Below, in pieces: positions 1,179 through 19,685 of a stretch of 20,285 nt of DNA. The translations under genes and the position numbers were made by a program. The notes beneath the pieces were generated by a model that made no database searches, was not told where the DNA came from, and saw only the letters and a program-made list of their open reading frames with translations. Each line of letters begins with the position of its first letter. The stretch's first letter is position 1. Origin of the DNA: a virus; IMG/VR virus record IMGVR_UViG_3300021962_000832, positions 1 through 20,285 of that record. One strand, written 5' to 3'.

Positions 1179-1181
1179 GGT

Positions 1182-3585: not shown

Positions 3586-3596
3586 ACATCACCCCA

Positions 3597-3812
3597 TCAA
3601 TTATCTGGCCGCACAAACGGCAATGTTATGTCATCCGCTGGCTTCATCGGTAGCTTGTTGCCATCAATGGGATCCCAGCAATCGTTGCAAACCATTAATC
3701 CCGGCACATTACCATCTGGTTTAATGTCGCCTATGCGATAGTTAAAACCGCATCTATCACAGCGTGCCAGTCCATAACTTGCCCTACCACGGACGCTAAA
3801 TCTGCGTGGCAT
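3597..3812 (-). CDS. Small zinc-ribbon phage protein, 71 aa
   Basis: Two Cys pairs, C18-x2-C21 and C42-x2-C45, 20 residues apart and flanked by aromatic and Gly residues (LARCDRCGFNYRIGDI; GLMVCNDCWDP), make a typical treble-clef or zinc-ribbon arrangement. The N-terminus is basic (MPRRFSVRGR). Proteins of this size and pattern occur between adaptor and tail genes in podovirus-like genomes, but I know of no assigned function. The ATG overlaps the stop of the preceding adaptor gene as TAATG, indicating coupled translation and similar stoichiometry. It could be a small virion or assembly factor; nucleic-acid binding is possible but not shown. Confidence 0.72.
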   Translation of the reverse strand: MPRRFSVRGRASYGLARCDRCGFNYRIGDIKPDGNVPGLMVCNDCWDPIDGNKLPMKPADDITLPFVRPDN

Positions 3813-4789
3813 TAGAGCGGCCTCCCAAAAAAGCGAAACTGCAACGGGCTACCATCGTTATCACCATCTCGTGCATTCTGAAGTGACATCTGTGCCTGTT
3901 GCGCCAGTAAGGGAACAACACTCATATCAACACTTGGCGTTGTCATGGCTAGACGATAGGCCAGACCGTCAATAATGGCCTGCAACCAGCGCTGCGGCAC
4001 CTCAACATCGTTCCTCAGATTGTCCGTATCCATCACATGACGGTGACGCCACACGATACATTGCTGCTGCTGTTCAACGGTTTCTGTTGCAACAGGCCAC
4101 ACATGCAGCACCGGCTGCGGAATATCCCGCTGGTACCAATATTGAACGGGCTGCCCCTGCTGCCCCTTTTGCGCCAAGCTGAAATAATTGTCCCTGTTGA
4201 TGCGTCCAATCACAATTTCATTCGGGTTTGCGCCAATCTTGACCCAGCTATATGACAGTGTGCCAGCACCAGTTACCCGAAAATATGTTGCAGAAACCGG
4301 CACATCAATATCAACCCAAACAATATCCCCAGCCGAAGCCGTGCCAGTCCATGTCGCAACCGTTGTATATGTTGCATCATCATTGCTTACAGCCAAGGTT
4401 AAGTTTGTGCTTGCACCAGACCACTTAATTCCGACAGTCGCAACATAGGTTGCGGACAACATCCTCAATTTGTAACTTGTCGTTGTGGTCGTTACTGTCC
4501 CACTCTGGATACCTACAGTCCGATACGCAACAGACAAAACATCCAGCGTGCCGGGAGGCAAATCAATCACAGGGTTATTTTGGTAAAATGGCAAAACCTG
4601 CTTGTCAACAGCCCAAGACAGCGTTTTGCCATTCCCAAGTTCACTCAAAAACAAGTAAAGCTCGTCTAGCGCATCCTGAGCCGATTCAACAGGTATGGCC
4701 TGCGGAGGCAATCTGCACCGCCGATAAGCGGCCTCAATTACCTTCCGTGCATCAAAGCCATACTGCGAAACATTGCCGGAAAACGCCAT
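3812..4789 (-). CDS. Head-tail adaptor-like protein with inserted beta-sandwich domain, 325 aa
   Basis: The N-terminal part (~1-90) has helical adaptor-like sequence: FDARKVIEAAYRRCRLPPQAIPVESAQDALDELYLFLSELGN. It then has LPFYQNNPVIDLPPGTLDVLSVAYR, the usual 'Y.LP.GT.DVL.AY.R' strand. Residues ~95-190 interrupt this with a beta-sandwich-like insert (SYKLRMLSATYVATVGIKWSG; NLTLAVSNDDATYTTVATW; VSATYFRVTGAG) that resembles a discoidin (F5/8 type C)-like fold. The adaptor resumes at ~190 (EIVIGRINRDNYFSLAQKG...PVQYWYQRDIPQPVLHVWPV) and ends with ARDGDNDGSPLQFRFFGRPL, close to the 'A...D.D.SPL.I' tail of adaptor or connector proteins. It likely forms a ring below the portal, with the insert projecting outward and possibly decorating the virion neck. 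It is paralogous in type to the gene at 1182-1802. Confidence 0.68.
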   Translation of the reverse strand: MAFSGNVSQYGFDARKVIEAAYRRCRLPPQAIPVESAQDALDELYLFLSELGNGKTLSWAVDKQVLPFYQNNPVIDLPPGTLDVLSVAYRTVGIQSGTVTTTTTSYKLRMLSATYVATVGIKWSGASTNLTLAVSNDDATYTTVATWTGTASAGDIVWVDIDVPVSATYFRVTGAGTLSYSWVKIGANPNEIVIGRINRDNYFSLAQKGQQGQPVQYWYQRDIPQPVLHVWPVATETVEQQQQCIVWRHRHVMDTDNLRNDVEVPQRWLQAIIDGLAYRLAMTTPSVDMSVVPLLAQQAQMSLQNARDGDNDGSPLQFRFFGRPL

Positions 4790-4795
4790 CGTTCA

Positions 4796-4930
4796 TCACT
4801 TCTTCTTGCCAGCTTTAGGCTTCATGCCCATCGCCATCTTTTTGTGCATGGGCATCTTGGCATCGGACTTTACAGCCCCACCCTTTGCATACCCTTTTTT
4901 CATTTTTCCGCTTCCGCAATCTTTTTTCAT
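4796..4930 (-). CDS. Lys/Met/Gly-rich 44-aa microprotein
   Basis: A 44-codon frame, MKKDCGSGKMKKGYAKGGAV through MGMKPKAGKKK, extremely rich in Lys, Met and Gly, with no acidic stretch except two Asp. It lies in the only gap between the adaptor gene and the 88-aa gene and has the same strand. Similar short Lys/Met-rich peptides with a 'KKGYAKGG' core are, from memory, found next to structural genes in podovirus-like and metagenomic phage genomes. The net charge is strongly positive, which would suit DNA condensation or a capsid-lumen peptide. That is inference only. No start weaker than ATG is needed, and a poly-purine stretch precedes the ATG at moderate distance. Confidence 0.62.
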   Translation of the reverse strand: MKKDCGSGKMKKGYAKGGAVKSDAKMPMHKKMAMGMKPKAGKKK

Positions 4931-4951
4931 GTTAAACCCTCAAGGTTGATA

Positions 4952-5218
4952 TTAACAATTCCATGCTTTCAGAGAAAGGGCCTTCCGAGTTGGCTTCCCT
5001 TTTTCATCCTTCATGGGGCCGGGCATTCCGCTCATACGGGCGCAGAACGATTTCCGCCGTTTTGCATCTTTTTCCGTCTTGGGATTCGGTGCCGGTGGTT
5101 TTAATCCCGGCTTTCCGGGATTGTCCTTGTTGTACGATGCGCGTCCCTTGGCGTTTAGACCACCTTTCGGGTCTTTACCTTCCTTGCGCTGCCAAGCTGG
5201 TGTCTTCTTACCCGCCAT
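4952..5218 (-). CDS. Small basic phage protein resembling DUF6321, 88 aa
   Basis: The frame starting MAGKKTPAWQRKEGKDPKGG contains GGLNAKGRASYNKDNPG and ends RKSFCARMSGMPGPMKDEKGKPTRKALSLKAWNC. The 'NPKGGLNAKGR', 'SFCARM.GM' and 'K...ALK.WNC' landmarks are those I associate with the DUF6321 family of phage and metagenome proteins. The reading frame is open upstream to 5272, but the ATG at 5218 is preferred: the longer form would add an Arg/Cys-rich stretch out of character and overlap the upstream gene more. The start lies inside the last codons of the 61-aa gene (11-bp overlap). Strongly basic; role in the virion unknown. Confidence 0.72.
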   Translation of the reverse strand: MAGKKTPAWQRKEGKDPKGGLNAKGRASYNKDNPGKPGLKPPAPNPKTEKDAKRRKSFCARMSGMPGPMKDEKGKPTRKALSLKAWNC

Positions 5219-5393
5219 CACGCACCTCTGTCTTGACCTCAAAACGCAAGACAATATCCTGCCCACTCTCATCCTGCCCTACCATATCACGCTGAAGCGA
5301 TACGTGTTTTTTACCATCGGCAAGCACAGAGCCTGTTTCATACCATTCAGACCATGAGGGTTCAGATTCCTTGATAACCTTCTTTTTAGCCAT
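5208..5393 (-). CDS. Hypothetical 61-aa charged phage protein
   Basis: Starts MAKKKVIKESEPSWSEWYETG and ends FEVKTEVRDGG. It begins 1 bp after the stop of the 230-aa structural gene and overlaps the 88-aa gene by 11 bp, as expected for a coupled operon member. It has an early Trp pair (SWSEWYETG) and a central charged beta-like part (KKHVSLQRDMVGQDESGQDIVLRFEV). No family recognised. Position suggests a minor virion or assembly protein, but nothing in the sequence proves it. Confidence 0.6.
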   Translation of the reverse strand: MAKKKVIKESEPSWSEWYETGSVLADGKKHVSLQRDMVGQDESGQDIVLRFEVKTEVRDGG

Positions 5394-5394
5394 G

Positions 5395-6087
5395 TCAGAA
5401 TCCCTTCAGTAGAATGCCGTTTGCCCCCAGCACCGCGCCAGTGCCCGCTGAAGAAACAATACCACGAATATGCGTAATGTTGTAGTTGCTCTGCACGACA
5501 GCAGCAGAACCGGGGTTGGGCGGCGTTACGGCAGAACCAATATTGAACCATGTTGCCTGATTATCAACACTGCCCTGCATGGTAATCGAAGGCGCTGAAG
5601 AACCACCTGTGGCCCTGTTTGCAACAAGCTGCAAATTCATGCAGTTCGATACGTCAAACGCAGCAGTTGTGCTGTTTAACGAATTAACATTGATCGTTCT
5701 GTCAATAAATTGACGAATCAATGACCCCTGATCTGTTGACACGTTTCGGGTGATGCGGAATGTGAAAGACGGCGTTGTCCCGGCGATTGTACAAACATAC
5801 CGCATTGCGATGCCGTTACGCTGAAGTTTGGGTGTGCGCAAAATCGTAGTCGCGGAAATACGCGGGAAATGGTACCTGTCAATCCAGTTTGTGCCGCCGT
5901 CCGTGGATTCCTGCAATACAACATCAAGTGTTGGAGTTGTTCCGGAAACAGCAGTCACAACAACATTTGAAACAAACGAATTACCGGCATCATTGACAAA
6001 GGCGTCACTGGTAAATGTCGCGGTTCGAGCGGCGGACGCCACATCTTCAAAAAACCCGATAAAACCAGATGTTGTAAAGATAGACAT
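5395..6087 (-). CDS. Two-repeat phage structural protein, 230 aa
   Basis: The protein contains two similar halves of about 110 residues. Each has a hydrophobic strand, then Q-x-S-x-D-x4-W: LQESTDGGTNWIDRYHF (~58-74) and MQGSVDNQATWFNIG (~165-179). Each ends with strands that resemble the closing sheet of immunoglobulin-like or jelly-roll folds (MRYVCTIAGTTPSFTFRITR; THIRGIVSSAGTGAVLGANG). This suggests an internal tandem duplication of a beta-sandwich domain. It follows the hairpin terminator at 6110-6139, so it may be expressed at a lower level than the capsid genes. AGAGG precedes the ATG. It could be a capsid decoration, neck or tail protein; function unassigned. Confidence 0.7.
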   Translation of the reverse strand: MSIFTTSGFIGFFEDVASAARTATFTSDAFVNDAGNSFVSNVVVTAVSGTTPTLDVVLQESTDGGTNWIDRYHFPRISATTILRTPKLQRNGIAMRYVCTIAGTTPSFTFRITRNVSTDQGSLIRQFIDRTINVNSLNSTTAAFDVSNCMNLQLVANRATGGSSAPSITMQGSVDNQATWFNIGSAVTPPNPGSAAVVQSNYNITHIRGIVSSAGTGAVLGANGILLKGF

Positions 6088-6109
6088 GGCATAGCCTCTT
6101 TTTATCTCA

Positions 6110-6139
6110 TAAAGGAAAGAAGGCGGGGTTTCCCCCGCC
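6110..6139 (-). terminator. Hairpin terminator after capsid genes
   Basis: On the minus strand a perfect 7-bp GC stem GGCGGGG-GAAA-CCCCGCC (6139-6122) with a GAAA tetraloop is followed by a T-rich run TTCTTTCCTTT. It lies 9 bases after the stop of the 149-aa gene and before the next gene. The T-run is interrupted by C, so termination is probably partial. That would lower expression of the adaptor and fibre genes relative to capsid and scaffold. Confidence 0.75.
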
Positions 6140-6147
6140 CCCCTGAA

Positions 6148-6597
6148 TTACACCGAAGGAACATACTGAACAGTCAGACGAACACGCGCCTGCGTTGTCA
6201 AAATAGTGCCGTTCGGATCAACGGTCACAACAACATTGGTATTGCTACCAATATTAGAGAGCGCCAGCACTTGCGCCGCGCTAAGCGTTGGCGCTGCCCG
6301 CGCAGTACTGAACAGGTCAACGCTGTTCATATACTGCGTGCTAGCCGCTGCCGTTCCAACAGTAACAGGCAAGGTTGTCGCCGTGCCGCCGCCCACAGAA
6401 GGGGCAACAACACGATCAACCTTGTAATCAACAATGCTGCTGTTGGCTGGAAGTGTGATTGTTCCACTTACCGCTGAACCGTCCGCCAAGGTTGTAACCT
6501 CGACAGACTTCATCAGCACGGCAACGCCAAAATCTGTCGACGCGCCCCTACTCGGATTGCTACCGGCAGTAATGCCATTTTGGAAATACGAGGACAT
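6148..6597 (-). CDS. Hypothetical phage head-region structural protein, 149 aa
   Basis: Beta-rich, Thr/Val/Ala-rich protein (MSSYFQNGITAGSNPSRGA, then DFGVAVLMKSVEVTTL; VSGTITLPANSSIVDYKVD; TTLPVTVGTAAASTQYM; VVVTVDPNGTILTTQARVRLTVQYVP). It starts 2 bp after the major capsid protein's stop, with GGGGG 8 bp upstream of the ATG, and is the last gene before the terminator at 6110-6139. That places it in the high-level capsid transcript. Composition fits a capsid decoration or cement protein, but no family motif is recognised. No Cys, membrane segment or catalytic signature. Confidence 0.68.
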   Translation of the reverse strand: MSSYFQNGITAGSNPSRGASTDFGVAVLMKSVEVTTLADGSAVSGTITLPANSSIVDYKVDRVVAPSVGGGTATTLPVTVGTAAASTQYMNSVDLFSTARAAPTLSAAQVLALSNIGSNTNVVVTVDPNGTILTTQARVRLTVQYVPSV

Positions 6598-6599
6598 GA

Positions 6600-7520
6600 T
6601 TAAACCCCCGCATTACCAAAGACACCCCGATAGTTCGTGGCACCGACGGCAAACCGTTCGCGGCCCTTAATCTTCATGGTGTCGGCCTCAAACGAACCAT
6701 CATTGGCCAGACGTGGCTTTCCATCAGGATGCCAGAAGAACGAAAGACCGTGCGGCGCATTTGTGACAATGAACCACGGCGACACCAATGCCGAACTGGT
6801 CAAACGGGTCATTTTAACAACACCGTTTTTGAAGTCAGATACATATCTAAGTGGAGACACATCGTTGTTGGTGGTGCCAGCACGTAGCGTGTTTTCCATC
6901 AGAACAACGCCGTTCAGGTAGTTGTCCTTGGAACAAACCAACGTATCGGATTTCAACCCAATGATCTTGCCACGGAAGTCACGCGCACCCCAAACCTGAG
7001 CAGTAGCCGCCTCCAGCGACGTTTGCGCCAAGGTCGCAGCCGTCAGAAGATTGCTTTGAACGCCAGCAAATTGAGGATGGTTTGCACTGCAAAGTGCTTG
7101 GCCATCACCAATCGGGAATGCGCCATCAAATGCACGATTCAGATAATCAGCACACTTGATTTCTTGCGCCTCTAGCAATGACCGGGTGATGTGTTCCGAA
7201 TATGTTTTAGTCATAGACGGAAGATCGCCATCCTCGATCAATTCTTGGGTGAGGGCGCTCTGCAAGGCATACGTCACATAAAGATGTTCGTATGTCAGTT
7301 CAGTGCCGCCATCATCGGAAATTGTCGCGGAACCGGGCAATTTCTCACGCGCAACATCAAAACCATACATCATGGTTTCGCGATGCAGCGCATTCCGCAT
7401 ACCAGTCTGCTCTTTGAATACCTTTTTCCATTCAAGTTCTGTACCTTCATAGATACCCTTGAACGTCTTAAGGACTAGGCCTCCGGTAAGGTCTGGAAAA
7501 TTAGAAGACAACATAACCAT
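6600..7520 (-). CDS. Major capsid protein (HK97 fold, Mu gpT-like), 306 aa
   Basis: The order of segments matches known major capsid proteins of the gpT-like HK97-fold group. The N-terminal arm (NFPDLTGGLVLKTFKGIYEGTELEWKKVFKEQ) precedes the E-loop region (MYGFDVAREKLPGSATISDDGGTELTYEHLYVTYAL) and spine helix (EDGDLPSMTKTYSEHITRSLLEAQEIKCADYLNRAFDGAF). GQALCSANHP is a close match to the 'L(F/C)S..HP' landmark, and it is followed by the P/A domain (TSLEAATAQVWGARDFRGKIIGLKSDTLVCS; NTLRAGTTNNDVSPLRYVSDFK; SPWFIVTNAPHGLSFFWHPDGKPRLAND; RERFAVGATNYRGVFGNAG). 306 aa is normal for an MCP without a fused scaffold, which agrees with a separate scaffold gene at 8692-9666. AAGGAG precedes the ATG. It assembles the icosahedral shell. 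Confidence 0.93.
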   Translation of the reverse strand: MVMLSSNFPDLTGGLVLKTFKGIYEGTELEWKKVFKEQTGMRNALHRETMMYGFDVAREKLPGSATISDDGGTELTYEHLYVTYALQSALTQELIEDGDLPSMTKTYSEHITRSLLEAQEIKCADYLNRAFDGAFPIGDGQALCSANHPQFAGVQSNLLTAATLAQTSLEAATAQVWGARDFRGKIIGLKSDTLVCSKDNYLNGVVLMENTLRAGTTNNDVSPLRYVSDFKNGVVKMTRLTSSALVSPWFIVTNAPHGLSFFWHPDGKPRLANDGSFEADTMKIKGRERFAVGATNYRGVFGNAGV

Positions 7521-7532
7521 AGGTAGCTCTCC

Positions 7533-8132
7533 TTATGATACGGTATTTACGGCAGCGCTCAAATCGTGTTCGTTAATGTAAACGAACGCATCAATGAACG
7601 CATCGGTAAGTGGAGTGCCGGGATCAAAGCTATCAATAATGAATTGACCACGGGTTGCCTGTTTTGCTGTCAGGTACGTTTTGGAAATACCTGTTACAGT
7701 AGAACCAGCAGGTGATTCATTCGGACGCCAATCACATTGGCCATTAACAAAGCCCTGAACGGTAGTGCCGGGGCTTGGATTAGCAAACTGAACCCGAATT
7801 TTAGTGCTGCGCGGAACAATGACATAAGCCTGAATGGCTGTGGCCACAGTACCAGAAGGCCAGTAGTTCGACTGCACAATAGCATTCTGTGCATTGCGAT
7901 ACTGAACCCCTTGGAAGATACCCAGCAGGTTTTCCCCATCGGTTGTACCTGAGCGTGTGCCATCACTGGTAGCAAGCTGAATCGTGCCATCAGTGTGCCA
8001 CTTCACAGGATCGCCCTTGAAGATATTCTGTGCGTATCCGGACGCAATAGCATAACCGGGGCCGGAAAACCGAAGCTCTCCGGTCTGGTCATTTACAGGC
8101 AGGAAGCCTGAAGCTTGAGATGTACTAGCCAT
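7533..8132 (-). CDS. Phage head-surface (decoration/head-fibre-like) protein, 199 aa
   Basis: The gene lies directly before the major capsid gene, a usual place for decoration or head-fibre proteins. The sequence is beta-rich with motifs like GYAIASGYAQNIFKGDPVKWHTDGTIQLAT, LLGIFQGVQYRNAQNAIVQSNYWPSGT, and IQAYVIVPRSTKIRVQFANP. In my knowledge, 'NIF.GD.V......G......G......LLGVF.G..Y' is a common pattern among capsid-associated 'structural cement' and head fibre proteins of tailed phages. AAAGGA lies 9 bp before the ATG. It has one Cys and no catalytic motif. Assignment rests on location plus pattern. Confidence 0.68.
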   Translation of the reverse strand: MASTSQASGFLPVNDQTGELRFSGPGYAIASGYAQNIFKGDPVKWHTDGTIQLATSDGTRSGTTDGENLLGIFQGVQYRNAQNAIVQSNYWPSGTVATAIQAYVIVPRSTKIRVQFANPSPGTTVQGFVNGQCDWRPNESPAGSTVTGISKTYLTAKQATRGQFIIDSFDPGTPLTDAFIDAFVYINEHDLSAAVNTVS

Positions 8133-8149
8133 CTGTTAGATCCTTTCTG

Positions 8150-8647
8150 TTAAAATCTGGCCGGTTTGCTGGTAATTCCCATGGAACCGAAGCCGTCTCG
8201 TTGGTTGATGCCCACCATCGCTGCCTCAACACGACGTTGAGCGAAAACCTCTGATTTCATTCCAGCAACAGCTTGGTCTGGCAGCTTCCGATAAAAGAAA
8301 TTCATCAGAGCTTGCCATCTGGCTTCGGGGATTTTCATCAAGACCATTTCCTTGACGCTAATCATATCTCCGCCTGATTCACTGCGTGGAAAGTTTGGAA
8401 ATTCCTCAGGCCGGACTAGCTCATATCCAATCTGGCTCTTATTAGCGATATCGCCCTGAACATTCTTGGCTGCCCAGTAAAGCCGATATCCGGGAATTTC
8501 TCCGGGGAATGCCAGCGGGTTGCTTGTGTCCCGCTCAAGAAACCGTTCAAAATCAAAATCATCATTAAGATCAACTGGCGGCGCTTCGTGTTGCGCGGCT
8601 AAGTTCTGTTTCGATGACTTTTTGAAAGTGTTTTCTTCAGTCTGCAT
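8150..8647 (-). CDS. Conserved phage head-region protein of unknown function, 165 aa
   Basis: The N-terminal 35 residues are polar and look disordered; then follow NPLAFPGEIPGYRLYWAAKN, GYELVRPEEFPNFPR, DMISVKEMVLMKIPEARWQALMNFFYRKLP and a C-terminal helix (EVFAQRRVEAAM). The 'L.FP.EIPGY...W', 'GYE.V.PE' and 'V...EMVL.KIPE..W...M' series is known to me from head-region genes between scaffold and capsid in podovirus-like phages, but it has no established role that I can name. The position between scaffold and capsid suggests assembly. GGAG lies 9 bp before the ATG. Function unassigned. Confidence 0.65.
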   Translation of the reverse strand: MQTEENTFKKSSKQNLAAQHEAPPVDLNDDFDFERFLERDTSNPLAFPGEIPGYRLYWAAKNVQGDIANKSQIGYELVRPEEFPNFPRSESGGDMISVKEMVLMKIPEARWQALMNFFYRKLPDQAVAGMKSEVFAQRRVEAAMVGINQRDGFGSMGITSKPARF

Positions 8648-8691
8648 GTCCTATTACTCCATTCTATAATAGATTTTTGGTTCGGTCAACT

Positions 8692-9666
8692 CTACTTCTT
8701 CTTGCCGTTTTTAATGGCTTCCCTGATTTCCTCAGGGGTCATAAAATCAAGCCAAGCCTTAGGCACTGATATTGTAGTGCCCGTGCCTTTTCTGCCTTGC
8801 CCAACAACAGGGCCGCCTTTCTGCTTTCGCACTTCCGGCTTTTGTTTTTGTGCTACTACCGCGCCCTCATCCACAAAATCGTCAACCCTGCGCTGTAATT
8901 CGTTCCAGTAAGCCGCTGTGTTTGGATTGTACCCCTCAGACACCAATTGCCTATCGATTGTCATGGCAAGTCGTGATTCCTTGTTTACCCCTTGCCCGGT
9001 GCGTGCATCAAACTTAAACCACGGGTTTTCCTGCACGAAGTTCTCGAAAAAATGCTGGCTCACATCTTGGTTAACACGTGGTGCAACAGGTGCTTGCACA
9101 GATTGTACAAGCTGCTGCTTAGCTTCAAGCCGCCGTTGTTTCTCGACAATTAGTAGGGCCTTAATTCTTTCGGCTTCGGCTTTGACATTGTCGTCACCGT
9201 GAACAATTGCTTGATCGTAGTAATACGTGGCATGCCGGTAGTTATCATCCAACTTGGCAATTTCCTGATCCAACACAGAAAGCTGCACCTCATTAAACCG
9301 GCGCATCATTGCAGCTTGCTCCTGCTGCAACTGTGCGTTCAGTTTTTCAAGCTGTTCAAGGCGCTGCCTGTTATATTCCCTCGCCCTTTTCTGGCGCTCA
9401 CGGCGCTCTTTCCGCGTCAGTAAATGAGACCGCTCAGGTTTTTCAGGTTCTTCACCATCTTCAGGCTCACCGTCTTCGGGCGTTTCATCACCTTCCGGAT
9501 CGTCTTCACCATCATCGCCGTTTACCTCTTGTCCCGAATCACCATCCGGCTCAGAAAGTTCGGCATCCTCGATCTCAATCGTGATTGTAGGTTCATCAGC
9601 GCCGTGCATAGAAGATATCAGTTCTTCCAATGCGCGTTCTTCATCCTGTTCGTGGTCTTGCGTCAT
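8692..9666 (-). CDS. Capsid scaffolding protein, 324 aa
   Basis: The N-terminal ~80 residues are very acidic with repeated Gly-Glu-Asp-Pro (DGEDDPEGDETPEDGEPEDG). Then comes a basic coiled coil (RKERRERQKRAREYNRQRLEQLEKLNAQLQQEQAAMMRR, ~85-125) and a longer helical middle. A conserved FFENFVQENPWFKFDARTG (~205-223) is followed by a C-terminal Lys-rich helix FMTPEEIREAIKNGKKK, with helix-loop-helix character. This acidic start, coiled-coil middle and basic capsid-binding end is typical of P22/phi29-type scaffolds. It lies upstream of the capsid gene and has GAGGTGAG near the ATG. The scaffold directs procapsid assembly and is expelled or lost during packaging. The family was not confirmed by search. 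Confidence 0.82.
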   Translation of the reverse strand: MTQDHEQDEERALEELISSMHGADEPTITIEIEDAELSEPDGDSGQEVNGDDGEDDPEGDETPEDGEPEDGEEPEKPERSHLLTRKERRERQKRAREYNRQRLEQLEKLNAQLQQEQAAMMRRFNEVQLSVLDQEIAKLDDNYRHATYYYDQAIVHGDDNVKAEAERIKALLIVEKQRRLEAKQQLVQSVQAPVAPRVNQDVSQHFFENFVQENPWFKFDARTGQGVNKESRLAMTIDRQLVSEGYNPNTAAYWNELQRRVDDFVDEGAVVAQKQKPEVRKQKGGPVVGQGRKGTGTTISVPKAWLDFMTPEEIREAIKNGKKK

Positions 9667-9674
9667 GGCTCACC

Positions 9675-10109
9675 TCACATAGACACAGAAACGCCGTGCA
9701 ACTGCGCGTTGACAGGATCGACAACATTGCAGCCAACAACGTCAATATCTGGAATAATTGCAACCAAGACACGGTCGGACTCGTCGCTCGTATCAACAGG
9801 ATCGACCATAAATTGATCCCCAGCCCATTTGCGCACCACGACAAAATCACCAACCTTCGGGCGTTTATCCCTGTCCGGACTCCATTCTCGGCCCTTTCCT
9901 GTCCCCTCAAAAGCATATGGCCCGATTGCCAAAATCTTAGCAACAATCGTTGATTGCTGAACCCCAGATTGCGTGTCAGGCACAAGCAAAACGCCACCTT
10001 TTGTTTGCTTTCGCGGCTGTCGAAGCTGCACCAAAAGCTTGTTTACCACAGGCTCAAACTCAACCGCGACTTTTGGAAAGGCCGCATCCATATCGTACAC
10101 ATAAGCCAT
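9675..10109 (-). CDS. GroES-like co-chaperonin (Cpn10-fold), 144 aa
   Basis: Residues ~18-120 follow the Cpn10 outline. A first strand with FEPVVNKLLVQLRQPRKQTKGG is followed by the mobile-loop region (KQTKGGVLLVPDTQSGVQQSTI, ~34-55), then AKILAIGPYAF, KVGDFVVV and DQFMVDPVDTSDESDRVLVAIIPDIDVV. This compares with GroES 'R.....VK......SAGGI.L......... GEV.AVG....' and 'VGD.V.F....G.....I..E....L...DI'. A VLL triplet takes the GroEL-contacting IVL place. ~45 extra residues (GREWSPDRDKRPKVGD and the C-terminus) are not GroES-like. It likely replaces host GroES to open the GroEL chamber for capsid folding, like T4 gp31. The ATG at 10109 with AAGGA is preferred; upstream ATG 10118 and GTG 10139 give extra residues only. 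Confidence 0.78.
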   Translation of the reverse strand: MAYVYDMDAAFPKVAVEFEPVVNKLLVQLRQPRKQTKGGVLLVPDTQSGVQQSTIVAKILAIGPYAFEGTGKGREWSPDRDKRPKVGDFVVVRKWAGDQFMVDPVDTSDESDRVLVAIIPDIDVVGCNVVDPVNAQLHGVSVSM

Positions 10110-10135
10110 TTCACACATCCTTAACTTGACGACAA

Positions 10136-10333
10136 TCACATGCCATCATCTTCCATCAGGCGTTTGTAAGTGGCATCCAGAAGGTGTAAAGCATCAAGCA
10201 TTCCTCGATACTGTCCCCTTAGATACCCATAACCAGCATCGCCTGTTTCTGCTGGTTTTTTCATGGCCGCCTCGGCGTGCTGTTGCATCATTGTTTCAAG
10301 CTCGCGCCGCAATTCGGCCAATAACTGAAGCAT
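10136..10333 (-). CDS. Small coiled-coil phage protein, 65 aa
   Basis: An all-helical polypeptide (MLQLLAELRRELETMMQQHAEAA, then DAGYGYLRGQYRGMLDALHLLDATYKRLME). The GYGYLRGQYRGMLDAL segment resembles the 'G...G...G...AL' helix of small phage proteins coded between portal and scaffold genes. The gene begins exactly one base from the end of the portal coding region, so translation is coupled, and ends 27 bp before the co-chaperonin start. A portal- or scaffold-associated assembly factor is plausible; function unknown. Confidence 0.65.
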   Translation of the reverse strand: MLQLLAELRRELETMMQQHAEAAMKKPAETGDAGYGYLRGQYRGMLDALHLLDATYKRLMEDDGM

Positions 10334-12655
10334 TTACACCCCCGGATTGATGCCACCACCGGTTGAAACGGCGTAACGATCACCTGTCATTGACTCAGCA
10401 ATCGCCAGTCGCATCGCAGTCTGGTTATCATCAGAGTTCATTTTTTCACGCATCTGCATTTCAATTGTAGCACGCTGGTTTTCCGCCTCCTGTTTGAATT
10501 TCTCAAGCTCAAGGCGCATCTGGCCTTTAAGCTGCTCAATCTCAAGCATCGGATTCTGCACCCCCGGCTGCTGTTTATACTGCTCAGCCTCCTGCACCAG
10601 AGCCTGAACCTCTGGCATAATCGGCGCAAGCGCTTGCTCAATCTGTGCTTGCGTATTCAGAATCAGCATGGTCTGCGCATCTGTATCATCTATGACCACG
10701 CCTTCCATGAGTTCGTCAGCCTTCACCACGGCCTCATGCGCCTGTGTCAGATACAGCTGGCTAATGTGCTGCAAGATGTTCTGCACAATCGCAGGTAGGG
10801 CAATTGGCCGCACAGAAGGACTCATCAGAACAGGTGACTTAACAAACGCCATATGCACCTTAATATGTCCTATGTGATCTTGTTTTGGTAGCGCCACAAA
10901 TGGCCTTCCCATCGTTGCAGCCACATTCTCAGACACAGGATCAAGGTCTTCACTGCCCGGCATGGGCTGCAAAACATCACCAGCCGGTATCTTAAGTTGT
11001 TCTAAAAATCGCTCCTCAACCTTACGCTGGTCATACAAAGCAGGGGTTGCAGCCGCACGTTGCATAAGCGCCTGAACCTGTGCAAAACGCTGTGCCTCGC
11101 TAAAAATATGCGGCTCAGACACCGGGATAACATCCACGGGGCCGTCAAAATCTTCAGGCTTTACGTCAAGCCCTGTATTCCAAAGCTCTAAAACTTCCTC
11201 ATCAACCCAAAAGTGATTGATCCGGTACAAAATACCAAGCAGGCGTCCCATTGCGTGGTGCATCCTGTGGTGTATCTCTGAAAAAACAACAGCACCCTGC
11301 TCAATAAGCGCCAAGGTGGTACCTACAGGCGCGTTCGGATTGCCGTCAGCAACCCTGTCCAGACCAACATCGACTGTTTCTTTGGCCTGCTTTACAACGT
11401 AATCAAGTAAATTTGCCAGCACCGGGGACGGCCCCGGAAATGGCAACGGCATAGCGTATTTTTTAATGTCATCTGTGACTGCACCAGCGTCAATCTGCGT
11501 TGATTGCCCCGGACGGATATCAATAGACTGCCCTGTCGGGCCACCCTTGAGTGTCAAAAATGACGGAATATTTTGGATTGCAGCGCTGTCAAGTAATGCT
11601 CGTAGCGATCCTGTCGCGCATCGCGCAAGATCACCGATAAAATGCACAAGCCCTACAGGATATGCACCCCGCCACGGCAAACAAGGCAGCTCGACAATCC
11701 AATCTAAGCGCACCTTCAGCGCATCATCCGGCTTCCAGTTTCGGTAGAGTGACAATACTTTCAAACTGGATGGATCAATTGTTATCAGATACGGCGCATC
11801 GTCGCCCTCAATATCAAGATAACATGATACCTCATACAGCTCTTTGAGGCCATCCTCAGTAAAACTTGAACGATCCGCGCCCTCAATTTTGTCAATTTCA
11901 AGCTGTGTTTCCGTCACCTCATCAAAATTTGAAGCAACCGACACGTCAACACCATAACGCTCTTTAATGTCACGGTCTGTCAACCTCAGAACGTGCGTAA
12001 TCCGTTCAGCAGAATCAAACGTACTGGTTGTAATGGGCGTAAACACATAATCAAGGGGCACATCCTCGACAACAGGACGCTTGAACCGATCCGACCAGTA
12101 CATCTTGACGTAGTGCACGCCTATAAGCCCAACCTGCGTCAGAGCCTGTCCAAGTAAAGGCCGAAACTCACTCATCTGCTCGGTGGTTTGCCAGCGCATA
12201 AGCTCGGCAACACGTTGTGCTTTCTTGATCTTTTCGTGATCCTGCTCGCCTAAAATCTTAGACTTAACCGGCCCGTTCGCAGGAAAAATCTCGCGCATAA
12301 CGCGACTGGAAAAATCAACACACGATTGAACCATAATAGGATGCGTGACGGTTGATCCGCCATCAATGCCAAGGCCGCCGGGTGCTGGCTCACCAAGGCC
12401 GGTTAGCCTCAACGCCTCAGCATACTTTTCATCTTGCGGCCTGCGTTCCTCGCGGTCTTTATCAATGTCAATCACAAGCTGTTGCGCAAGTGCGCGCAAC
12501 TTCTGCTTATCGACAGCATCAACAATGTTTTCAAAGTGTTCCCGCGCTTCGTCTGCGGTTGTATAGCCCTCGTCGTCTTCATCAAAACTAATTTCGACCA
12601 TATCCATTTCTGGTACGTCAGCGGTAAACTCAATCTCTAGTTTCTGTTCTTCCAC
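10334..12655 (-). CDS. Portal protein, 773 aa
   Basis: Large enough for a podovirus-type portal (usually 500-780 aa), with features of that family. It has an early helical region (KLRALAQQLVIDIDKDREERRPQDEKYAEALRLTG), a glycine-rich surface segment (GLGIDGGSTVTHPIMVQSCVDFSSRVMREIFPANGPVK, ~95-130), and a wing region with the strand DVPLDYVFTPITTSTFDSAERITHVLRLT. Then come crown- and stem-like helices (DLARCATGSLRALLDSAAIQNIPSFL; SPVLANLLDYVVKQAKETVDVGLDRVADGNPNAPVGTTLALIEQ). The C-terminus (~704-745) is a coiled coil (LEIEQLKGQMRLELEKFKQ), the barrel-type tail seen in P22-like portals. It lies next to the large terminase, as always. It forms the dodecameric channel through which DNA is packaged. 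Confidence 0.92.
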   Translation of the reverse strand: MEEQKLEIEFTADVPEMDMVEISFDEDDEGYTTADEAREHFENIVDAVDKQKLRALAQQLVIDIDKDREERRPQDEKYAEALRLTGLGEPAPGGLGIDGGSTVTHPIMVQSCVDFSSRVMREIFPANGPVKSKILGEQDHEKIKKAQRVAELMRWQTTEQMSEFRPLLGQALTQVGLIGVHYVKMYWSDRFKRPVVEDVPLDYVFTPITTSTFDSAERITHVLRLTDRDIKERYGVDVSVASNFDEVTETQLEIDKIEGADRSSFTEDGLKELYEVSCYLDIEGDDAPYLITIDPSSLKVLSLYRNWKPDDALKVRLDWIVELPCLPWRGAYPVGLVHFIGDLARCATGSLRALLDSAAIQNIPSFLTLKGGPTGQSIDIRPGQSTQIDAGAVTDDIKKYAMPLPFPGPSPVLANLLDYVVKQAKETVDVGLDRVADGNPNAPVGTTLALIEQGAVVFSEIHHRMHHAMGRLLGILYRINHFWVDEEVLELWNTGLDVKPEDFDGPVDVIPVSEPHIFSEAQRFAQVQALMQRAAATPALYDQRKVEERFLEQLKIPAGDVLQPMPGSEDLDPVSENVAATMGRPFVALPKQDHIGHIKVHMAFVKSPVLMSPSVRPIALPAIVQNILQHISQLYLTQAHEAVVKADELMEGVVIDDTDAQTMLILNTQAQIEQALAPIMPEVQALVQEAEQYKQQPGVQNPMLEIEQLKGQMRLELEKFKQEAENQRATIEMQMREKMNSDDNQTAMRLAIAESMTGDRYAVSTGGGINPGV

Positions 12656-12664
12656 GGTCGCACC

Positions 12665-14224
12665 TTACGAATAGGGGTTTACAAATTTTCTTTCAGGCTG
12701 CTCAAAGTCAACCACAGGATTAGCATACTCCTGTACATCGAGCAAGCTCGACGCTCTCATGTACAAAATAGCCTGTGACCAGCTATCGACATAATCATCA
12801 TGACCACCACCGCCCGGCTTAAACATTTCAAGCTGTTTTACAAACGGCTCCGCCCAACCTGCGATTGATCCGTCACATTTTGTGCTTTCCGGCAACCAGA
12901 TCTGACCATTAGCAAGGTAAGGTAGCGCACCATGCACACGGCTTGTCTTGTCACCAGCTTGCTTGTTCCGTTCGATCGAAACAGCACCAATCCCGCGCTT
13001 TCTCAGGTCTGGTATCAGCGCATGGCCAGACGCCTTGTTTTCAACCAGCACGCAATCGGCACGCCTTGGGATTGAGTAACCGTAGCCGTTTGACTTCATG
13101 GCATATTCTTCGTTCCACTCTCGGATTGCAGCCTGCAACAACGTAGGGTAATCCATTCTCTCCGACCAGCAATCAATCAGCATGGCGTTCATCCGGCCAT
13201 CAAACCGGAAAATGCCCCACACCGTGAAAGCTGTGCAATCTGCGGTTTCCTTTTCAGAAAATGCCGTGTCAAACGATTGAATGATTGTCGAAAAGACGGG
13301 TGTTTTGCGCTCATTAGGCCATACTTTCCACCATTCGCGCTTGATAATACCACCACCTAAGGGCGTTGGACGTTGCTGGTACTGCGCCGCATAGGCATAA
13401 GGCCCAAGCTTTGACTTAAGCGACTCAACCTCTGATGCGTCAAAACGCTCAGGTAGTAAAAGCTCACCGGGTTTTGTGCGGGGATCTTTAAATATGGACG
13501 TTTGGCACGCATGGTCTGGCTCAAATTCCATTGGTAAACAAAGGTGTTCCCACTTGTCCGGTTCAATTTCAAGGGCAATGCCCGTGGGATCGTTCACATC
13601 CACACGTTGCATAATCAGGACAAAACAATCCGTCTTAGGGTTGTTGATCCGGCTTGGCAACACCTCCCGCCAGACCCGCGATGCCTCTTCGATAACAGAT
13701 CTTGAGTTGCTTTCTTTCACCGATATGGGATCGTCAACCAAGATGCGATTACCGCGCTTACCCGTGACATTCATGCTCGACGATTGCCGGAAACCGTTAT
13801 CCATCGTCTCAAAGTAGTGCTTTTGGTTCTGGTCGTCCTTTAGTTTCACGGGCCAGCGCGCCTGAAACCACTCACTTTGTAAGAGATTACGCGACCTTAG
13901 ACTATCGCGCCCTGACAACTCTTCGTTGTGTGCCACCGATATGTACTTTGCCCACGTCATGCCGCGTGGCCCCCACTCCCACATCGGCCAAAACACACAC
14001 ACAAGTAGAGATTTTGCAAATGATGGTGGGATATTGATAATCAGGCGCTGTATTTTACCATCTGTGATTGCTTGCAGGTGATCGCATACTGCTTGCATAG
14101 GCCAGCCCCACACAAGGGGTTCTGCGGGATGCAAAACGTGCCAAGCCTGCTGCACAAAATACGCCAGAGAGCGCCTGCACAGCTCTTTATCAACGTTAAG
14201 GATATCAAGCTCTGTCAGCTTCAT
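12665..14224 (-). CDS. terL: Terminase large subunit (packaging ATPase/nuclease), 519 aa
   Basis: The N-terminal ATPase has a Walker-A-like loop LIINIPPSFAKSLL (~61-74; Lys71) that is degenerate in having Phe-Ala where most have Gly, as in several phage terminases. The Walker B is RILVDDPIS (~160-168; Asp164/Asp165), with a coupling motif FVLIMQRVDVNDPTG (~201-215). The C-terminal RNase-H-like nuclease supplies acidic residues in IIQSFDTAFSEK (Asp319), CVLVENKASG (Glu395) and GGHDDYVDSWSQA (Asp476-480). This arrangement and length are typical. It overlaps the small subunit gene by 20 bp and is followed 9 bp later by the portal. It pumps and cuts phage DNA during packaging. Confidence 0.97.
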   Translation of the reverse strand: MKLTELDILNVDKELCRRSLAYFVQQAWHVLHPAEPLVWGWPMQAVCDHLQAITDGKIQRLIINIPPSFAKSLLVCVFWPMWEWGPRGMTWAKYISVAHNEELSGRDSLRSRNLLQSEWFQARWPVKLKDDQNQKHYFETMDNGFRQSSSMNVTGKRGNRILVDDPISVKESNSRSVIEEASRVWREVLPSRINNPKTDCFVLIMQRVDVNDPTGIALEIEPDKWEHLCLPMEFEPDHACQTSIFKDPRTKPGELLLPERFDASEVESLKSKLGPYAYAAQYQQRPTPLGGGIIKREWWKVWPNERKTPVFSTIIQSFDTAFSEKETADCTAFTVWGIFRFDGRMNAMLIDCWSERMDYPTLLQAAIREWNEEYAMKSNGYGYSIPRRADCVLVENKASGHALIPDLRKRGIGAVSIERNKQAGDKTSRVHGALPYLANGQIWLPESTKCDGSIAGWAEPFVKQLEMFKPGGGGHDDYVDSWSQAILYMRASSLLDVQEYANPVVDFEQPERKFVNPYS

Positions 14225-14669
14225 CGCGTTCGGATTGTTTTCGTTGTGCGGCCATGATGGCTTTCAAAGTGCCGTCATCGAGCAGGGACACGTCAAGCGT
14301 TGCTTTAGGCGACATGCTACCATCGCTTGATTGACTATCCACGATTGTTTTTTCAGCGTAGTTAAATCTCGCCGACAACAAAAATTTAGCAAACGCTGGG
14401 TTGTATCTCTCAGCTAGCCCACCCTGCACAAGCATGGATTCGCAGAACTGCTTAAGCTCTTGATATTTAAGCTCAAAATCACGGTGCTTGTAAGCCCAAT
14501 TTCGGAAGCTCTCAGCATTAACGCCTAGCATCTGAGCACAACCCTGAAGCGAGGGCCATACGTGCCCCTCAATTTCGCGCCACCCACCAGAAATATATGC
14601 GTCAATGGCATCAAGTGTGGCCTGACCTCTATACTTTGACGTGTATCCTGTTGTGTGTGGCATCGTCAT
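14205..14669 (-). CDS. terS: Terminase small subunit-like packaging protein, 154 aa
   Basis: Start ATG at 14669 has AGGGGG five bases upstream (a second ATG two codons on is possible). The N-terminus carries a helix-turn-helix-like stretch (IEGHVWPSLQGCAQMLGVNAESFRNWAYKHRDFELKYQELKQFCE), where 'SLQGCAQMLGVNAESFRNW' resembles the DNA-recognition helix pair of small terminases. A central oligomerisation-like helix LVQGGLAERYNPAFAKFLL matches the common 'G........P....FLL' landmark. The C-terminal tail is polar (LLDDGTLKAIMAAQRKQSERDE). It overlaps terL by 20 bp and is the first gene after the promoter at 14699-14727. It is expected to recognise the packaging site and load the large subunit. Confidence 0.85.
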   Translation of the reverse strand: MTMPHTTGYTSKYRGQATLDAIDAYISGGWREIEGHVWPSLQGCAQMLGVNAESFRNWAYKHRDFELKYQELKQFCESMLVQGGLAERYNPAFAKFLLSARFNYAEKTIVDSQSSDGSMSPKATLDVSLLDDGTLKAIMAAQRKQSERDEADRA

Positions 14670-14679
14670 GTGCGCCCCC

Positions 14680-14748
14680 TGTCAACATAATAGTGACAAT
14701 CATAGGTGCGTGCGTGCGCATTGTCAATGTACAGTTAACAATGACAAT
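14680..14748. promoter_or_regulatory. Inverted heptamer repeats flanking the late promoter (operator candidate)
   Basis: The heptamer ATTGTCA/TGACAAT occurs at 14694-14700 (+), 14720-14726 (reverse) and 14742-14748 (+), with a partial TGTCA at 14680-14684. The pairs 14680/14694 and 14720/14742 form inverted repeats with 9- and 15-bp spacers. They overlap the -35, sit between -10 and start, and lie just upstream. This spacing would suit a dimeric repressor or activator. No regulator gene is in the window, so binding is inference. The heptamer also contains part of the TTGACA -35 box, which limits significance. Confidence 0.45.
14699..14727 (-). promoter_or_regulatory. Sigma70-type promoter of the phage late operon
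   Basis: On the minus strand TTGACA (14727-14722), 17 bp, TATGAT (14704-14699): perfect -35, one mismatch -10 and ideal spacing. The start point would be near 14692, about 23 bases before the small-terminase ATG. No other equally good promoter was found in the following 14 kb, so it can drive the whole late block. The spacer (14706-14721) is an alternating GC/AC purine-pyrimidine tract. Confidence 0.85.
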
Positions 14749-15794
14749 CAACCGTTCTCGGCCTGTGCTGATTTCCATGGCCAATAAGGCCGCGCTGAAA
14801 TGCGGATTGGTGTTGGGATCGGGCGCACCGGTATCAATAATCACCAGCGTGCGGCTTGCGCTCAGGCGGTGATAGCCGCCTTGGGGCAGGGTGCGCAGCG
14901 AGCGTCCCCGGCTGTCGGCCCGGGTCAGAATGGTATCGATGGTTAACGGATCGCCCTGATTGCCGCCCTGAAAACTGGCCAAGGCACCATCGCCATGCCG
15001 CCATAATTTCAGCGCCAGCGTCATGCGGCTGATGGCGGTGGTCAGAAAGCCGGGAGGCTTTTCATGCGCGAGAGCAAAGCAATTCCGCAGATCAATCAAG
15101 CCCCGCAGCGCCAGCATGTGGCGTTCCGGATTGCGTTCATTCAGACAGCCATCACCGAGCAGGTGCCGGGTAAGGGCGGTTTCCAGCGTGTCCAGCGCAG
15201 CCTTGAGATGAAGGGATTCCGGATCGAGGCATTGCGCCGCCAGCGCCCAGCCCGTAAGGCTGACCAGCGCATCTGCGCCGGTCAAGCGCCCGGGCAACAG
15301 GCGGCTTAGATGTCGGGCCGGCGCATCATGGCGCGATAGAGGCGCTCGCGAAAGCTGTGATCGGCATTTTCCAGAAAGAAATCATGCAGTAACAGCCAAT
15401 GCCGCAATCTGAGGCCGGTGGCGACAGCGTCCCAGCCGGGTTCGGCCCAGCGTTCATAATGGTCAAGCCATTGGCTGCACAGGGTGCGGGCGCGCTTACG
15501 GGCCTGATCGCCCCCTTGGCTGCGCAGATCATGCAGCCAGCCAAAACCGTGCAGGGCGATTAACACCGCTGTGGGCTGGGGCAGATCGGGAATAAAGGGA
15601 TCGCTGTCAATTGTGATGATCCGCCCGCACAGATGATAGCGCCCGGCCAAAATATCCGCCCCGCGTGCGGGATCGCCCGGCCAAGGATCGGCAGGCGTTA
15701 CCCGCAACCGCCGCGGCATCAAGACGAGGCGCAGGCTTTGTTGATTGACGCTACGGAACAGCGCGCGGAAAGCTAAAAAACATAGTAAAATCAT
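14742..15794 (-). pseudogene. Truncated, frameshifted heparinase II/III-family gene
   Basis: Two minus-strand frames are pieces of one bacterial heparinase II/III-like protein. The first half (15794-15306) has LVLMPRRLRVTPADPWPGDPARGADILAGRYHLCG, LHGFGWLHDLRSQGGDQARKRARTL and RLRHWLLLHDFFLENADHSFRERLYRAM. The second half (about 15300-14742) has LLPGRLTGADALVSLTGWALA, HLLGDGCLNERNPERHMLALRGLIDLR, LWRHGDGALASFQGGNQGD and AMEISTGRERLIV. The frame changes between MMRRPDI-stop and HLSRLLPGRL, near 15300-15310, by loss or gain of one base. The C-terminal beta-sandwich expected after 'GRERLIVNCG' is absent. The GC-rich composition differs from both flanks. An AT-rich in-frame extension (15795-15908) is of doubtful authenticity. 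Inactive. It is either host DNA flanking a prophage or captured cargo. Confidence 0.8.
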
Positions 15795-15919
15795 AGCCTT
15801 ATCTTTTGATCGTGTTTTGATTGTTTCCTGCTGGTTTACAATAGATGGGTTTTGCGGTTTGATTGTAGACTGTTCATTGACAATTCCAGCATATTTTTGA
15901 TTTTCCATAATTCTGGTAT

Positions 15920-15945
15920 TACGCGTGCGCGTGCGCGTGTGCGCG
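15920..15945. repeat. Alternating purine-pyrimidine (CG/TG) tract, Z-DNA-prone
   Basis: 26 bp of uninterrupted purine-pyrimidine alternation (TACGCGTGCGCGTGCGCGTG then TGCGCG), 12 bp upstream of the longest possible heparinase frame. A shorter alternating tract (16 bp) lies at 14706-14721, as the spacer of the late promoter. Thus the GC-rich gene fragment is bracketed by two such tracts. An A-rich stretch (15971-15979) and the first promoter cassette follow. It has no coding content. Confidence 0.6.
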
Positions 15946-15989
15946 GGTGCCCTAATTATTTTTTTGGGTCAAAAAAAAATCAATTTTGT

Positions 15990-16051
15990 GCATTTTCGCA
16001 TTGACAATCGTTTTTGACGGGGATAGATTAGGGTTATCGGACAACACAAGG
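15990..16051 (+). repeat. Promoter-leader cassette, copy 1 (62 bp)
   Basis: Matches 17018-17079 at 56 of 62 positions. The last 32 bases, from GGGATAGATTAGGG through CGGACAACACAAGG, are identical. The cassette includes a full promoter and an untranslated leader ending in a purine-rich Shine-Dalgarno-like AAGG. It places two separate short gene groups under the same control. The conserved leader ATCGGACAACA could be an operator or an RNA regulatory element. Confidence 0.85.
16001..16029 (+). promoter_or_regulatory. Sigma70-type promoter P1 of right arm
   Basis: TTGACA (16001-16006), 17 bp, TAGATT (16024-16029). Start expected near 16036, about 30 bases before the first gene. A second copy is found at 17029-17057 with identical boxes and spacing, which strongly supports real function. 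Confidence 0.85.
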
Positions 16052-17011: not shown

Positions 17012-17017
17012 ACTGAT

Positions 17018-17079
17018 GCATTTTTGTATTGACAATCGTTCTTGGTTGGGATAGATTAGGGTTATCGGACAACACAAGG
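17018..17079 (+). repeat. Promoter-leader cassette, copy 2 (62 bp)
   Basis: The second copy of the element at 15990-16051 (56/62 identical). It begins 7 bases after the stop of the 97-aa gene and ends directly before the next gene's Shine-Dalgarno region. Most differences lie in the spacer and upstream of -35, while both promoter boxes and the entire leader are conserved. This pattern points to selection on promoter boxes and leader. Confidence 0.85.
17029..17057 (+). promoter_or_regulatory. Sigma70-type promoter P2 of right arm
   Basis: TTGACA (17029-17034), 17 bp, TAGATT (17052-17057), the same boxes and spacing as at 16001-16029. Start expected near 17064, ~26 bases before the ATG at 17090. 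Confidence 0.85.
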
Positions 17080-17948: not shown

Positions 17949-18181
17949 TGGACAAATTATCCGGGCTGAATGACCTTGATCGTTATGATCTGATTGAGGA
18001 TTTTGAGAGGATGAACCCGGATTGTGTGTACTCCACTCCTAATGAGATTAACGCCCGACGCGTTGCTCAGAAATTGGATCGGAAGAACACGAAACGTGAG
18101 AAACGTGAAAAGAGGAATCGGAAAAATGAAAAAAATCATCACCGGCCCAACGGGGTCTGGAAAAACATATCAGGCCATTAG
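17945..18181 (+). CDS. Hypothetical 78-aa protein with very basic C-terminus
   Basis: MMDKLSGLNDLDRYDLIEDFERMNPDCVYSTPNEINARRVAQKLDRK... followed by a Lys/Arg/Asn tract (KREKREKRNRKNEKN). The ATG overlaps the previous stop (ATGATGG), so translation is coupled. The 5' half is a plausible acidic helical protein. The last ~19 codons run over the start and Walker-A region of the helicase fragment in another frame, a 56-bp overlap that is long for a true gene pair. The C-terminus may be an artefact of a lost stop. A short direct repeat GAAACGTGA x2 lies in the basic part. Function unknown. Confidence 0.5.
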   Translation: MMDKLSGLNDLDRYDLIEDFERMNPDCVYSTPNEINARRVAQKLDRKNTKREKREKRNRKNEKNHHRPNGVWKNISGH

Positions 18182-19153
18182 CCGGGCGCGGGCCTTGGGC
18201 CGGTTTGCGTATGCAGCGCCGTGCAGGCTGCTGGCATACGAAAGTTTCATAAAATATGCGGGGCCAAGTGATCGTCTGGAGACGGGCGGTGCCCAAGTTA
18301 TTCTTGGACGTGGCAGTCTGTTTACCTGCTTTTCCGGGATCAACCCGGATCATATCCGGCAAGGCCGATCGAAGAATTTAACATTAAGCGTATCGGATAC
18401 CTAGATGCGCTTGTCCGGATGCGATCAGGGGTATCAACCCTGATAATCGCCTCATCCATTAAGGATGCCGATTGGTTTTCTACAAAATACGAAGCATCTC
18501 TAATAACCAGAGAGTTTTCGGAGTATCATATTTTTAAGACAATGATTGATTTTCAGGAGGGGAAAATCAACCGTTTGGTGTCAACTAATATCGCCGCACA
18601 AGGGCTCAATTTACCTTGTGAGAATCTGATTCTCCATCTCAATAATTGGGATGGAAAAAAGGATATTTGCCAGAAAATTGGGCGTCTTGGACGCCCCTTT
18701 ATGGGCAAAAATGACATAGCTCTGACTGTGTCATATCATTGTGATATGGATAGTTATGACGCCTCATATCACAGCGCGACAGAAAAACGTCTGGATGCTT
18801 GGGACAACCGGCTGGTTGTCGAGAGAATTGTACAACCGGGCGGTGATCTGGCGCACTGGAGGGTCAACCTTGACCATGTGCCAGAGCCTGACAAAGATTA
18901 TCAGGAGCCGGGGCGTGACCGGGGTTGCGAGCTGCTGATTTACAAACAGCTCAAAAAAAGATGGCGTGCGGAAGCCGAGGCCATGAATAATGAAATTATC
19001 AGGTTGGTAAACAAACCTGAAGTAACGGCCAGTGAAGCGCGTGAACGCATCCCTGAAGCCATGTGGCGGTGGATGATGGACGAGGAGGACATGACCGAGA
19101 GTGAGGTTATGGAAAAGAGGATTGCAACCGGTGATAGGTATTATCCGGTTTGA
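18126..19153 (+). pseudogene. Decayed SF2 helicase (two frames, motif II missing)
   Basis: First frame (18126-18404) begins MKKIITGPTGSGKTYQAISR, a perfect Walker A/motif I, then a motif-Ia-like GRFAYAAPCRLLAYESFIKYAG. Second frame is open from before 18359 (ARPIEEFNIKRIGYLDALVRMRSG), with STLIIASSIKDADWF resembling motif IV, NRLVSTNIAAQGLNLPCENLIL matching motif V and DICQKIGRLGRPF matching motif VI. No DEAD/DExH box or SAT motif lies between. The joined protein would be ~340 aa, so about 80-100 residues around motif II appear deleted and a frameshift follows near 18355-18370. The C-terminal part (DHVPEPDKDYQEP; KRWRAEAEAMNNEIIRLVNK; WRWMMDEEDMTESEVM) is family-specific. As a helicase it must be inactive. 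GAGGA precedes the ATG. Not a programmed frameshift: no slippery site. Confidence 0.75.
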
Positions 19154-19251: not shown

Positions 19252-19389
19252 ATGAAAAAATCTAAGCTCAAAACCGCCGAGGTGAAGGGTGCAGCAGTCG
19301 AGGAACAGCGTATTTTTCACGCATTTTCTGCACCCAAAAATGCAAGAACCCCCTTTTTTATCAGGGGGTTATGCAGTGATCCATTCTAG
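19252..19389 (+). CDS. Hypothetical 45-aa protein, possibly a remnant
   Basis: ATG with GGAGA at 6-9 bp upstream; MKKSKLKTAEVKGAAVEEQR, then IFHAFSAPKNARTPFFIRGL and CSDPF-stop. The first 20 residues look like a genuine polar helix. The final part is coded across a strong stem-loop (19341-19375) and its stop lies in the first copy of repeat B (19383-19418). So the 3' end may be shaped by rearrangement. No family recognised. Confidence 0.45.
   Translation: MKKSKLKTAEVKGAAVEEQRIFHAFSAPKNARTPFFIRGLCSDPF
19341..19375 (+). other. Stem-loop within the 45-aa frame
   Basis: AACCCCCT (19347-19354) pairs with AGGGGGTT (19363-19370) over an 8-base T-rich loop. TGCA (19341-19344 and 19372-19375) extends the stem across a bulge. 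No T-run follows on either strand, so it is not a standard terminator. It could be a regulatory hairpin or a hairpin-end remnant of a small mobile sequence. Confidence 0.55.
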
Positions 19390-19418
19390 CAATAAGGGAT
19401 CAGTGGGTCAACCGTAAC
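19383..19418 (+). repeat. Direct repeat B, copy 1 (36 bp)
   Basis: Matches 19449-19484 with one mismatch in 36 bp. The two copies are 66 bp apart, exactly 22 codons, and are in the same frame. This copy lies before the ATG of the 79-aa gene, coding in frame ILAIRDQWVNRN but with no start codon of its own (a TGA sits just upstream). It is a truncated duplicate of the gene start. Confidence 0.85.
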
Positions 19419-19445: not shown

Positions 19446-19685
19446 ATGATTCTAGCAATAAGGGATCAGTGGGTCAAGCGTAACGAGTCAGAATTTGTGG
19501 ATAAGGTGCGATTGCGCCGAGCAATCTTAAGGTGCGATGATAATATCGCGGTATGGTGCGATCCACCGAAACAACCTATTCTAACTTTTGATGAGGACGG
19601 AGATGTTGCTGAGGCCCAATACCCTGAATTGACTCCCGATGAGGAGTTTGAGGCGTGCTGCCACTGGGTGGCGAAGGAGGATTGA
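19446..19685 (+). CDS. Hypothetical 79-aa acidic protein
   Basis: MILAIRDQWVKRNESEFVDK; VRLRRAILRCDDNIAVWCDPPKQPILTFDED; ending DEEFEACCHWVAKED. There are four Cys (…RCDD, WCDP, ACCHW) but not in a zinc-finger pattern. The start is the only ATG that keeps the frame after an upstream TGA; the ribosome site is poor (GAAACA). The 5' end is repeated 66 bp upstream (repeat B). A hydrophilic, helix-rich small protein; no family recognised. Confidence 0.6.
   Translation: MILAIRDQWVKRNESEFVDKVRLRRAILRCDDNIAVWCDPPKQPILTFDEDGDVAEAQYPELTPDEEFEACCHWVAKED
19449..19484 (+). repeat. Direct repeat B, copy 2, at start of the 79-aa gene
   Basis: Codons 2-13 of the 79-aa protein (ILAIRDQWVKRN). The near-perfect upstream copy at 19383-19418 implies recent tandem duplication of a 66-bp unit or a replacement of the gene's upstream region. 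Confidence 0.85.

Follow-up and report, generated by a model that had tools for sequence, protein, structure and literature searches.

A truncated, frame-shifted heparinase-like gene fragment of host type, apparently carried between the early and late gene blocks of a phage

In the mosaicism model of tailed phages, fragments of host genes enter phage genomes by illegitimate or short-homology recombination. The locus described here agrees with this model in that part of a host gene, foreign in composition and cut short, lies at a gene boundary with a presumed short match at the join and spared phage functions, but it differs in that the gain is read from composition and homology, as searches gave no close empty-site relative. 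Like a moron, it is an extra gene of differing composition between two phage operons; unlike a moron, the gene is not intact and has only weak promoter sites around it, with no promoter or terminator of its own recognised. In specialised transducing phages (lambda gal) host DNA is joined to phage DNA at a short illegitimate match, as it presumably is at this locus, whereas here the packaging and head genes are kept and no attachment site or integrase was seen. The captured piece itself has the sequence of the alphaproteobacterial heparinase II/III gene found beside purH, collinear over positions 57-399 of a homologue model, although ~190 C-terminal residues are absent and the frame is broken. 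The probable capture of host DNA at this locus is a known kind of event and not a new system, seen here in a poorly sampled phage and with an unusually readable junction.

The window analyzed is the whole of IMG/VR virus record IMGVR_UViG_3300021962_000832, which is linear and 20,285 bases long. The leftward genes (3-14669) make up one operon for structure and packaging, with major head protein, GroES-like protein, portal, TerL and TerS, and the first gene of this operon is the terminase small subunit gene terS (14205-14669, minus strand; PF16677, E 1.5e-10; PHROG terminase small subunit). Rightward genes start at 16067; among their products are a DUF7699 protein and fragments of a Suv3-like helicase. 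The heparinase segment sits in the gap between the leftward operon and the rightward early genes. The GroES-like co-chaperonin gene (9675-10139, minus strand) adjoins the portal gene, as it also does in the portal relatives L135-L138. The helicase (18024-19153, plus strand) looks broken as well, since its Walker A part (Suv3 profile positions 17-58 of 154) and its helicase C domain lie in different frames, and no space is left for the DEXQ motif before helicase C. Further right, a direct repeat of ~30 bases (ATTCTAGCAATAAGGGATCAGTGGGTCAA) occurs at 19383-19411 and 19449-19477, the two copies being 66 bases apart.

The segment differs from its surroundings in composition. A three-segment maximum-likelihood fit placed a stretch with 62.8% G+C at 14788-15768, as compared to 48% and 42% in the flanks, and GC3 was 0.69-0.70 in the heparinase segment versus 0.45-0.51 in the phage genes. 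The trinucleotide distance from the left arm was 0.43 for the segment, whereas no phage window exceeded 0.31. The foreign composition has phage sequence on both sides, as expected of a capture, and the phage-type −35 word and operator type are likewise present on both sides.

Judged by sequence similarity, the segment corresponds to the 5' portion of a heparinase II/III gene from Alphaproteobacteria. Membership in the family was supported by a Pfam PF07940 match (E 6.6e-7; 29.5 bits, cut-off 24) limited to profile positions 2-58 of 237, where the C-terminal domain begins. With a profile built from 20 bacterial heparinase II/III homologues, two pieces were recognised on the minus strand: a C-ward piece ending in GRERLIV (14743-15297; 222 bits, model 196-399) and an N-ward piece in another frame (15306-15795; 137 bits, model 57-194). 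The two are collinear on model positions 57-399, a single model position separating them. Among the relatives found, the nearest come from the Alphaproteobacteria (Azospirillales and allied Rhodospirillales), at 42-47% identity, and the donor presumably belonged to such a lineage. The gene was found in 82 of the 82 genomes searched of one order, and plasmid copies in Rhizobium and Qipengyuania adjoin purH. The intact host allele that the sequence-only reading had proposed to look for was not found, as class and order searches for a donor genome gave at most 47% identity. No heparinase relative was present in the phage records searched, none was confirmed in a scan of viral contigs, none of the solved structures sought for mapping the catalytic residues matched, and literature searches returned nothing directly relevant.

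The gene is broken in two ways. Near 15300-15325 its reading frame changes, leaving two pieces in different frames, which contradicts the earlier description of the coding pattern as intact up to GRERLIV. In addition, the homologues run from GRERL through IVN(C)G for ~190 further C-terminal residues that are missing here, and the lost part includes the AAHS block, which 104/114 homologues have no more than 30 residues from the break. The sequence-only reading had suggested a search for the rest of the gene at the distal end; neither the missing C-terminal part nor any further piece occurs in the window, and the gene has no open frame that extends over the entire C-terminal domain. The family signature is nevertheless clean in each of the two frames (222 and 137 bits). 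The best reading of the fragment is that it is now a pseudogene.

The left join shows how host and phage sequence meet. The minus-strand frame 14629-15297 reads ...MEISTGRERLIV and then, across the break, IVNCTLTM, and it continues across the promoter into terS without a change of frame, in agreement with the initial observation that the heparinase frame runs unchanged into the promoter. Of 114 unselected homologues, 113 have [IV][VI]N(C/A/S)G immediately at the break, while the window has GRERLIV-IVNC-TLTM. The homologue profile aligns VNC after a two-residue insertion ('RLI--vnC'). The resemblance was thus not cut off cleanly at GRERLIV, where it had been said to break, but VNC recurs after two extra codons and the likeness to the host gene extends to 14731, within the sequence over the late −35 box. 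IVNC at the join is the sole xVNC tetrapeptide outside the insert in all six frames of the window. The host-like IVNC codons (ATTGTTAACTGT, 14731-14742, minus strand) overlap the left copy of a phage operator-like site, and for this reason the left join probably fell in microhomology, presumably shared between donor and phage. Alternatively, the overlap of operator and IVNC could have arisen later, when the junction was copied in inverted orientation and the duplicate became the inverted arm. The sequence does contain the join, and we infer that it is physical in the DNA.

Beyond the join, the late promoter and terS are intact. The predicted promoter (14699-14727, minus strand) has sigma-70-type boxes, TTGACA at 14727-14722 and TATGAT at 14704-14699 with a 17-base spacer, and lies 30 bases before the terS start; downstream follow AGGGGG and the terS ATG at 14669. 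It had been called a perfect promoter that starts the terminase operon. Its presence before terS was confirmed, but it matches 11 of 12 positions and is not perfect. It scores best of the 15 promoter-like sites that lie between 13000 and 17500, where shuffled sequence would give 5.7. Its core starts 15 bases past the break, lies wholly on the phage side and looks undamaged. On the other side of the gap, a promoter scan gave an early promoter, TTGACA-17-TAGATT (16001-16029, plus strand), which recurs at 17029-17057, and the two have TTGACAAT in common. They lie in a 63-nt repeat of 90% identity (15989-16051 and 17017-17079, plus strand) that precedes two early genes.

The pattern ATTGT-N13-ACAAT has three exact sites in the window, versus 0.05 expected. 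One covers the late −35 box (14720-14742) and reads ATTGTTAACTGTACATTGACAAT on the minus strand; one lies at 15862-15884, and the third, between these two, at 15820-15842. The outer copies form a 23-nt inverted repeat around the insert with 20/23 matches, a score reached in 0 of 200 shuffles (maximum 18). The word TGACAAT had been pointed out at 14742-14748 and 15878-15884 as flanking the gene. It does occur at these positions but is not specific to the junction, as the window holds 10 copies (4.2 expected) and the −35 boxes at 14720, 16001 and 17029 each contain one. TGACAAT is therefore a recurrent word of the −35 and operator sequences of this phage and not a scar, and as a promoter word it was also ruled out as a target-site duplication. 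Alternating GT/GC tracts lie just beyond both operator arms (14703-14719 and 15920-15946).

The right join could be placed between ~15768, where the foreign composition ends, and 15820, where operator-type sequence begins, and no closer. An in-frame ATG at 15795 stands at a similar distance from the DPWPGD motif as in homologues and may thus be the original start of the heparinase gene. In the same region a 42-nt spaced repeat (15814-15884, minus strand) encodes in frame IVNEQSTIK and IVNQQETIK; the ORF with these two peptides begins at 15908 and continues into the heparinase frame.

Taken together, our results make it probable that host DNA was captured by homology-assisted illegitimate recombination and has since decayed, a course of events that would account for everything observed. 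About 1.05 kb of an alphaproteobacterial chromosome, with the 5' part of the heparinase gene, would have entered the regulatory gap where the early and late operons diverge, presumably a place at which inserts are tolerated. The host RLIVNC codons and the phage operator ATTGT-N13-ACAAT would be alike by chance, and recombination could have exploited this likeness, the cut end being joined inside the resemblance and leaving a 6-nt offset repeat. The insert would have spared the early and late promoters and was probably near-neutral, and the fragment would then have decayed by at least one frameshift; the order of these events and the neutrality of the insert are part of this reconstruction. A relative without the insert was sought by nucleotide searches of phages and of plasmids and by scans with terS, terL, portal, capsid and the DUF7699 protein, which returned distant relatives or none, so that none close enough to show an empty site came to light. 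In L136 and L137 the gene order upstream of the portal is not comparable with the window, and terS was not found in the eight related records searched. The portal search of 385 genomes of the class gave three distant matches (27-28%) and no usable host link.

The original observation mostly holds, apart from the gene being intact up to a junction heptamer. The original suggestion had been an illegitimate join or a prophage insertion. An illegitimate join fits the foreign composition, the truncated host-type gene and the overlap of IVNC and operator. The edge of a prophage is not supported, because phage genes with the same promoter and operator words lie on both sides, which means that a host fragment is inside a phage rather than a phage end inside a host gene. 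Aberrant excision of a prophage of the lambda-gal type, with the right join as the old attachment junction and only the left join illegitimate, would fit a host fragment between phage blocks, host-like codons that run into phage sequence on the left side only, and the short repeats on the right side. We consider it improbable; no integrase, tRNA or att site was recognised in the window, a weak argument in an incomplete record. A little less improbable, though still unlikely, is that a chimeric molecule (e.g. from whole-genome amplification) or a misassembly joined bacterial and phage DNA. The source is a metagenomic virus record, and inverted short repeats at the ends are the sort of place where amplification chimeras arise, but two independent false joins would be required in one short gap with the same phage type outside both, and the matches at the joins appear too short and too diverged to mislead an assembler.

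Three further explanations we regard as very improbable. A mobile element delimited by the 23-nt arms (14720-14742 and 15862-15884) would account for their significant 20/23 match, but none of the ORFs that the arms enclose is a transposase and no target-site duplication adjoins them; moreover, the arms resemble operators, of which there is a third copy within. The predicted operator of a phage regulator, ATTGT-N13-ACAAT, could be a recurrent acquisition site whose look-alikes steer host DNA into the gap; if this far-fetched reading were true, this phage group would repeatedly gain cargo between its early and late genes. The third is a working phage enzyme, a polysaccharide lyase or depolymerase cargo broken only by sequencing error. 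The clean family signatures in both frames imply either recent decay or an erroneous frame change, but the loss of the C-terminal residues with the AAHS block and the lack of phage homologues speak against a functional product.

Capture of host DNA remains our preferred reading, and about 1 kb of a host heparinase-like gene, truncated and frame-shifted, is apparently carried between the early and late blocks of this phage. The locus gives a readable snapshot of host DNA uptake by a phage, in which a first step of decay and, at the cut end, a probable short match are both legible. Such fragments should not be annotated as phage-encoded polysaccharide lyases. For this otherwise unplaced phage, the fragment suggests an alphaproteobacterial host near Azospirillales/Rhodospirillales.
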